Shown here: piece after piece, positions 47,156 through 48,049 of the stretch
How the letters are laid out: each line of letters starts with the position of its first letter
Position numbering within the stretch: the stretch's first letter is position 1
From: Candidatus Saccharimonadota bacterium
Lineage (GTDB): Bacteria; Patescibacteriota; Saccharimonadia; Saccharimonadales; Saccharimonadaceae
DNA: 64,000 nt
Reading direction: 5' to 3'
Assembly: GCA_017404935.1 (NCBI GenBank)
Contig: JAFRBI010000009.1
Coordinates: 1-64,000 of the forward strand
Made by a program: the position numbers and the translations under genes
Notes under the pieces: generated by a model
The model's input: the letters and a program-made list of their open reading frames with translations, nothing else
What the model was told of the DNA's origin: nothing
The model's database searches: none

Positions 47156-47446
47156 ATGTTAACCATTGACACAATAAGAGATATAGTTTCCAAAGTTGGT
47201 AAAAAATACGGCATCAAAAATGCATATCTTTTTGGTTCTTATGCTAAAGGCACGGCGAATGAGAATAGTGACGTAGATTTGGTTATAGATAAAGGTGAAC
47301 TACATACCTACAGGGATTACTTTCATTTTTGTGATGAATTAGAAACTGAACTAGGCACAGATGTGGATATCACTTCTGAAGACGGTATGTTCCCGGGTTT
47401 CTTTGAATTAATAAAAAATGATAGGATATTGCTGTATGGAGCCTGA
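47156..47446 (+). CDS. mntA: MntA-like nucleotidyltransferase antitoxin
   Basis: The 96-residue minimal nucleotidyltransferase has GSYAKGTANENSDVDLVID (about 27-45), matching G-S-x10-D-x-D, and a third Asp in DVDIT. In MntA/HepT pairs this protein adenylylates the HEPN toxin to silence it. The toxin gene follows 12 bases later. The start is leaderless. Confidence 0.88.
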   Translation: MLTIDTIRDIVSKVGKKYGIKNAYLFGSYAKGTANENSDVDLVIDKGELHTYRDYFHFCDELETELGTDVDITSEDGMFPGFFELIKNDRILLYGA

Positions 47447-47458
47447 TTTCTTTTAAAA

Positions 47459-47770
47459 ATGATTGTAAATTATTGCGATAATATCACTGATGCAGTGAAA
47501 GATTTTGATTTAAGTTTAGAAAAAATTACAGAAAATAATGGGTATAGGGCAATGCTCGCTTTCTTTGTTCAACAAATTGGGGAAACGGCAGGGAAATTAA
47601 GCGATGATTTTAAAGAAAATCATCCGGAGATAGAATGGAGAGCCATTATCGGGTTTAGAAACAGAATTGTGCACGCTTATGGTAAAGTTATGCCAGATAT
47701 TTTATGGGATACGGTAAAGAATGATATTCCAGAGCTAAAAGAATATTGCGCTAACCAAATTGATAGTTAG
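47459..47770 (+). CDS. hepT: HepT-like HEPN ribonuclease toxin
   Basis: The 103-residue all-helical DUF86 protein carries the motif R67-NRIV-H72-A-Y74 (R-x4-H-x-Y), the active site and adenylylation target of HepT toxins. It would cleave RNA unless modified by MntA. No good ribosome site precedes the ATG, so it may depend on read-through translation from mntA, keeping toxin lower than antitoxin. Terminator follows at once. Confidence 0.88.
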   Translation: MIVNYCDNITDAVKDFDLSLEKITENNGYRAMLAFFVQQIGETAGKLSDDFKENHPEIEWRAIIGFRNRIVHAYGKVMPDILWDTVKNDIPELKEYCANQIDS

Positions 47771-47809: not shown

Positions 47810-47849
47810 GTGTTTTTATTTTTTTGGCTTGTGGTTTTTAAAAGTGTGT

Positions 47850-47855
47850 TATAAT
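47850..47855 (+). promoter_or_regulatory. -10 box of structured-RNA candidate
   Basis: TATAAT preceded by GTGT, ending 4 bases before the closing stem at 47860, so a transcript would start at the base of the fold. Confidence 0.65.
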
Positions 47856-47859
47856 TAGA

Positions 47860-48012
47860 GTGCAACAGTTATGTATTTTTACTAATAGCAAGTCTATTTT
47901 ATTATAAATAGGTTGCCATTAGAACATTGAAACGGCATCATGAGGATGTTGTGCTCTAATGGCAACTTGCTAGTAGAATTGCATAACTGTTGCACCTCGT
48001 GGTGCCGTTTTT
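47860..48012 (+). ncRNA. Candidate structured RNA, about 150 nt
   Basis: The ends form a perfect 14-base stem (GTGCAACAGTTATG 47860-47873 with 47982-47995). Inside, TAGCAAGT pairs with ACTTGCTA, a small A/T hairpin bulges on the 5' side (CTATTT/AAATAG), and a 12-base stem GTTGCCATTAGA/TCTAATGGCAAC leads to a terminal hairpin. A terminator (GCACC-TCGT-GGTGC then TTTTT, 47992-48012) shares four bases with the closing stem, so the two exclude each other. It may be a free RNA of 6S-like rod shape, or a switchable leader for the FISUMP gene 38 bases on. No protein frame fits. Confidence 0.6.
47992..48012 (+). terminator. Terminator of structured-RNA candidate
   Basis: GCACC/GGTGC with a TCGT loop and five T; overlaps the 3' strand of the long closing stem by four bases. 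Confidence 0.65.
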
Positions 48013-48049
48013 GTATTCGGCCTCGCGAGTTTAACAAAGTGAGGTACCA

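Follow-up and report, generated by a model that had tools for sequence, protein, structure and literature searches.

A multicopy structured leader RNA, probably a transcription attenuator, before FISUMP surface-protein genes of a Saccharibacteria genus

The locus and its fold

The window (the whole 64,000-nucleotide stretch of DNA that was analysed) carries at 47860-48012 a structured element with its own promoter, placed before a gene for a FISUMP-domain surface protein (Table 1). The protein encoded at 48050-49384 matches the FISUMP profile TIGR02145 at E 9.5e-10 and 39.4 bits, narrowly missing the cut-off of 41.65, and has no Pfam match. Just upstream, at 47156-47770, lies a gene pair for a nucleotidyltransferase (MNT-like, PF18765/PF01909) and a HepT-like ribonuclease (PF01934), which is probably a HEPN-MNT toxin-antitoxin pair.

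The fold at 47860-48012 is real and beyond chance, with a minimum free energy of -66.3 kcal/mol vs a shuffle mean of -38.3 +/- 3.5 (z -8.1; 0 of 200 shuffles). Most of its parts had been recognized in the initial annotation: the -10 box (TATAAT at 47850-47855, to which an extended TG at 47847-47848 can be added), a closing stem that indeed runs for 14 bp without mismatch, an A/T hairpin that interrupts the rod on its 5' side, and a terminator-like stem-loop that has four bases, GCAC at 47992-47995, in common with the closing stem. U-rich side hairpins are also found in other copies of the element. The local terminator hairpin of the window stops 2 nt short of the U-run, and between this terminator and the FISUMP gene no convincing promoter-like site was found. 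A hairpin over the Shine-Dalgarno sequence may form in read-through RNA; it is present in some copies and absent in others.

What escaped the first reading was a second pairing, together with the existence of further copies in the genome and genus. The apical loop at 47929-47945 (motif 'a') is complementary over 17 nt, by Watson-Crick and G-U pairs, to 47995-48011 (segment 't'), which takes in the terminator's loop, its 3' arm and its U-run. This complementarity was noticed because, when copies were compared, the rods proved unrelated, with tip and terminator kept as a complementary pair.

Table 1. Features of the leader element and the gene behind it, in window coordinates
Feature	Position	Strand	Basis
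Extended -10 promoter element TGTTATAAT	47847..47855	+	sequence
Rod, a long paired RNA hairpin reaching from the likely start of transcription to the closing-stem base	47860..47995	+	folding
Closing stem, 5' strand GTGCAACAGTTATG	47860..47873	+	sequence, fold
A/T-rich side hairpin, 5' side of rod	47894..47911	+	sequence, fold
Apical loop motif 'a' GAAACGGCATCATGAGG, terminator-complementary	47929..47945	+	17 bp with 47995-48011; covariation
Closing stem, 3' strand CATAACTGTTGCAC	47982..47995	+	sequence, fold
Local terminator stem-loop GCACC-TCGT-GGTGC	47992..48005	+	sequence
Segment 't' CCTCGTGGTGCCGTTTT, predicted to pair with local hairpin or loop 'a'	47995..48011	+	fold, covariation
Terminator U-run (U5)	48008..48012	+	sequence
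Possible hairpin CCTCGC/GTGAGG over the Shine-Dalgarno sequence (48039-48044), read-through RNA	48021..48044	+	fold
Putatively controlled gene for a 444-aa FISUMP-domain surface protein whose N-terminus has a hydrophobic segment	48050..49384	+	profile match

Distribution of the leader family

That the same fold might stand before other FISUMP genes had been anticipated, and a BLAST-type search located six or more additional copies in the window's genome, which thereby holds at least seven (C5:48k, C5:86.6k, C1:101k, C3:80.8k, C10:15k, C7:50k and C1:87k); several FISUMP genes of this genome are without such a leader. The FISUMP gene that enters the window at base 2 begins at a contig break, the start of C5. 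It carries on from the leader-bearing gene with which contig C1 ends (L010), and contig C3 opens (L132) with the same FISUMP N-terminal sequence as window base 2 and L010. Since three contig ends share this sequence, the assembly breaks in a repeated or recombining surface gene.

Across the genus, a strict pattern consisting of a loose tip motif and the terminator motif 38-68 nt apart matched 45 of 174 genomes (species), and the reversed control pattern matched 0. As many as 29 pattern matches fall on one strand of a single genome, the highest per-genome number of distinct leader places is about 36 (G174), and genus-wide there are hundreds of leader copies. In an order-wide sample (295 genomes, 143 genera) pattern matches occur in the window's Saccharibacteria genus only, and the named relatives with the pattern are Candidatus Saccharibacteria MAGs, many from the gut of cattle, goat and sheep. 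The genus that carries the leaders comprises tiny episymbiotic gut bacteria. The genomes used include MAG assemblies, and many of their contigs end near copies, often within a few hundred bases.

Pattern scans of named genomes (29 checked non-Saccharibacteria loci) and of viral contigs (17 matches) gave only matches that carry neither a -10 box nor a U-run, and on this count of 0 in 46 outside matches spread by phages or other phyla was rejected. The sole clear copy outside the genus, a single case, is L337 (G427:C32, ~16.57-16.72 kb), which has the layout of promoter, rod, tip, terminator and gene, with a -10 box and a 14-bp stem, and whose loop/terminator motif (GCGGCTATGTAC/GTACATAGTCGC) is unrelated to the genus motif; no second copy of the L337 motif was found in G427. 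Except at L337, a generic loop-terminator detector run on the FISUMP loci of other genera gave matches at the control level, and a folding-energy scan revealed no clear rod besides L337 among the loci scanned.

An Rfam search of the window and eight related loci at the gathering score returned tRNA in the window only, and at E<=10 eukaryotic microRNA-type and similar noise only. With no match at any useful score the leader family is missing from Rfam, as the initial annotation had supposed in naming no family for it, and membership in a known riboswitch or T-box family was not found. Less well supported was its suggestion of a free small RNA reminiscent of 6S. A gene-independent housekeeping RNA related to 6S would have the rod outline and the transcript-like boundaries of the element, but there is no Rfam 6S match even at E<=10, the rod is continuous apart from the side hairpin and shows no central bubble, and the element is present in many copies per genome that are nearly all linked to FISUMP-type genes; such an origin is extremely improbable.

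This linkage holds throughout the family. A same-strand ORF with an N-terminal hydrophobic segment, as in secreted or anchored proteins, lies behind 83 of the 85 copies that have an ORF and enough downstream DNA (6 more have no ORF by the criteria used and 16 too little sequence), and the median distance from terminator motif to downstream ORF is 75 nt. FISUMP (TIGR02145) was detected in 37 of 46 downstream proteins scanned, many of them truncated. Weak similarity to NCBIfam CPR_Pam_pilin_C (best 1e-7) is seen in 7 of these 46, and where its position is shown, in two proteins, the CPR_Pam_pilin_C part precedes the FISUMP part.

Dispersed copies with inverted repeats could also be imagined to be chance palindromes or a MITE-like mobile DNA, and a scattered inverted repeat lacking promoter and terminator was among the findings by which the initial annotation would have considered its proposal refuted. 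No such repeat was found; the dispersed copies carry a promoter and a U-run, and there is no clear copy away from genes and without a promoter. The z-score of the fold, the association with promoter, terminator and gene, the arms that are unrelated between loci though the structure is kept, and the missing context of chance matches elsewhere all speak against this origin, which is hardly credible.

Selection on the RNA and the loop-terminator helix

The arms of the rods were aligned in 107 copies with G-U and A-C mismatches weighted alike, so that G-U was not favoured by the scoring. On the sense strand there are 201 G-U and 54 A-C oppositions (composition-corrected p 2e-14), and G-U exceeds A-C in 82 copies and falls below it in 9. 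Since a DNA palindrome would lack such a strand preference, the rod is selected as sense-strand RNA. The promoter shows the consensus TGnTATAAT (frequencies of 0.75 for the T and 0.80 for the G of the TG, 104 copies), and the rod begins 4-6 nt after the -10 box in most copies, a spacing that places the expected transcription start at the rod base. Within the rod the basal stem is conserved, and change is rapid in the upper stem. The arm sequences of different loci are unrelated while their structure is kept. Among orthologous rods of three related genomes compatible double changes outnumber incompatible ones (21 vs 7); the single-side changes that break a pair exceed those that keep it (79 vs 59), in part because the variable part aligns poorly. 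Rejected as interpretations of the element were an invertible promoter, as the promoter is outside the repeat; an integron attC site and a MITE, by the RNA strand bias; and a leader peptide, as the ATG of the loop motif is not conserved.

The second conserved helix is that of 'a' with 't'. Over 30 distinct tip/terminator pairs 94.7% of the cells are paired, compared to 34-56% in slid controls, and double changes occur at 8 of the 17 pairs vs 3.3 after shuffling (0 of 500 shuffles reach 8), with 36 double-change cells vs 13.9. Because the motif served to collect the copies, part of its internal conservation stems from that selection, and the unbiased covariation is that at the free positions and at positions outside the motif. 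The pair adjoining the U-run, which is outside the search motif, covaries strongly (UA 13, CG 11, AU 2). At motif base 9 the search pattern leaves both sides unconstrained, and the pairs there, transcribed by hand from pattern matches, are Watson-Crick in 41 of 53 vs 22.9 expected upon within-genome permutation (0 of 100,000); the a:t pairing is thus kept locus by locus. Base 9 is mismatched in some copies, e.g. all five in G078, and rare compensated variants are found (GGTACC/GGTACC, AGA/TCT, CAGC/GCTG).

The local terminator stem is likewise kept: 106 of 107 copies have one of 4 bp or more, in some of them in a different register. The a:t duplex has a median energy of about -25 to -26 kcal/mol, and the local hairpin one of -7.5. 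In a nested model, forcing the alternative a:t fold gives up a median of 9.7 kcal/mol out of about -53, and 5.7 kcal/mol in the window (-64.7 to -59.0). Past the U-run the loop motif occurs a third time in many copies of other species; it does so at L015, L017, L018, L019 and L012 and in the majority of G174 copies, and could there keep the terminator segment paired in read-through RNA.

Proposed attenuation and exchange of surface genes

The trp/TRAP system, T-boxes and terminator riboswitches are familiar examples of attenuators. Transcription attenuators are defined by a mutually exclusive terminator and antiterminator (PMC3369936). In the leaders a terminator-like hairpin with a U-run is found between promoter and gene, and a second conserved helix, the covarying a:t, excludes part of the first fold. 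The initial annotation had offered a two-state leader of the FISUMP gene, switching between closing stem and terminator, as its other proposal; the recurrence of promoter, rod and terminator before a gene family upholds the leader, and the switch partner it named was incomplete: among conserved alternatives, the strongest competitor of the rod comprises the long-range apical loop-terminator helix as well as the four-base overlap. On the basis of these sequence features 47860-48012 is probably a cis-acting two-state transcription attenuator of the FISUMP surface-protein gene.

By default, in the polarity that we choose, the rod would zip up during transcription and trap 'a' at its tip, whereupon the local hairpin would halt RNA polymerase, release a short structured RNA and leave the gene off. 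If some factor blocked or undid the rod, 'a' could capture 't' and break the local terminator, and polymerase would enter the gene and turn it on. The helix a:t and the intact rod are likely mutually exclusive on geometric grounds, because 't' abuts the rod base with no linker and 'a' is ~50 bp away; such a rod-blocking factor should be required for a:t in cis, since 't' is transcribed only after the rod can be expected to have formed.

Granted a two-state attenuator, we somewhat favour this polarity, rod off and a:t on, over the reverse. Against it, 'a' pairs with the 3' half of the terminator right up to the U-run, whereas antiterminators usually capture the 5' half, and the a:t helix resembles a terminator stem by itself, so that the polarity could be reversed. 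The a:t helix would then be the real terminator stem and the rod an antiterminator keeping 'a' from 't'. This would suit the 12-13 GC-rich pairs next to the U-run with an A-tract opposite, the covariation of the last pair, the greater stability of the duplex (median -25 vs -7.5 kcal/mol) and the 2-nt gap between hairpin and U-run in the window, but the near-universal preservation of the local hairpin, including other-register copies with a changed 't', would be unexpected if the rod reads through. The reversed polarity is a serious rival, rather unlikely in our judgement.

The preferred attenuator should also yield, as a by-product, the terminated short RNA, which could have effects in trans. 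A trans-acting role might even be the principal one, with the tip 'a' of released rods pairing with 't' of other family transcripts and so coupling or mutually excluding surface genes. No opening of the rod would be needed in trans, the duplex has a median energy of about -26 kcal/mol, and 't' is nearly identical across loci within a genome (e.g. G174); the within-genome covariation locus by locus favours self-pairing instead, and a principally trans-acting RNA appears unlikely.

Like known attenuators, the element is a promoter-proximal leader with an intrinsic-terminator-like hairpin, a second helix on the same segment and a gene behind. It differs in that a long rod presents the alternative partner on its tip, in that this partner pairs with the 3' half and the U-run, in having no ligand-binding core, leader peptide or known factor, and in its multiplicity, with as many as about 36 paralogues whose rods are unrelated in sequence. 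The attenuator layout is unusual: the arms that bear the pairing partner differ at nearly every locus, and the pairing is kept. A likeness of description exists to Rli51 of Listeria, presented in its abstract as the leader of a secreted-protein gene with a predicted terminator/antiterminator that also yields a short RNA; Rli51 is single-locus, and the abstract describes no rod with a terminator-complementary loop (PMC11394854). A literature search found no paper joining Saccharibacteria with FISUMP, a structured RNA leader or a Pam pilus. The control of host-facing surface proteins in Patescibacteria is essentially unknown territory, and a review calls the mechanisms governing their differentiation completely unknown (PMC11665869). 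The leaders offer here a multi-copy RNA element with exact testable parts, before a large cassette-swapping surface family.

Within a genome, terminator, UTR class and N-terminal coding sequence recur near-identically and the rods differ. When genomes are compared, loci whose upstream DNA is 81-99% identical have retained the promoter and a recognizable rod and often have another 5'UTR class and another gene, the gene at paralog-level identity; in seven ortholog-locus pairs UTR identity is <=0.62 and protein identity <=0.40 with the rod still homologous. The exchange boundary appears to lie at or near the terminator, the junctions being resolved less finely than to a base. Such a pattern would fit a surface-antigen repertoire whose expression sites are fixed and whose genes are exchanged.

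Neisseria pil and Mycoplasma vsa/vpma are surface gene families, phase- or antigenically variable, whose 5' regions are conserved. The leader family resembles these in its variable surface genes after a conserved upstream element and in gene exchange, and differs in having its own promoter and RNA leader at every leader locus and in that no recombinase site is shown. The rod and terminator might accordingly serve mainly as the cassette boundary for surface-gene exchange, with RNA regulation secondary, as could be read from the differing gene and UTR types behind homologous rods at orthologous loci and from the contig ends near copies. The sense-strand G-U bias and the promoter/rod register need selection on RNA, however, and the common terminator and N-terminal sequence suffices for ordinary homologous recombination; a primary recombination element is distinctly unlikely. 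A broader and similarly doubtful conjecture is that the leaders could form a genome-wide RNA network, in which each terminated leader would be a stable RNA with a tip that pairs with its own and sister terminators, a few dozen swappable surface genes being checked or made mutually exclusive solely by RNA, with rods specific to each locus and cassettes joined at the terminator.

Poly-G tracts of ~9-11 bases occur at the start of or before some FISUMP genes, at L125 (G000:C1:68000-71500) and at L335 and L336 (G485), and suggest that slipped-strand phase variation may act on some of these genes as well.
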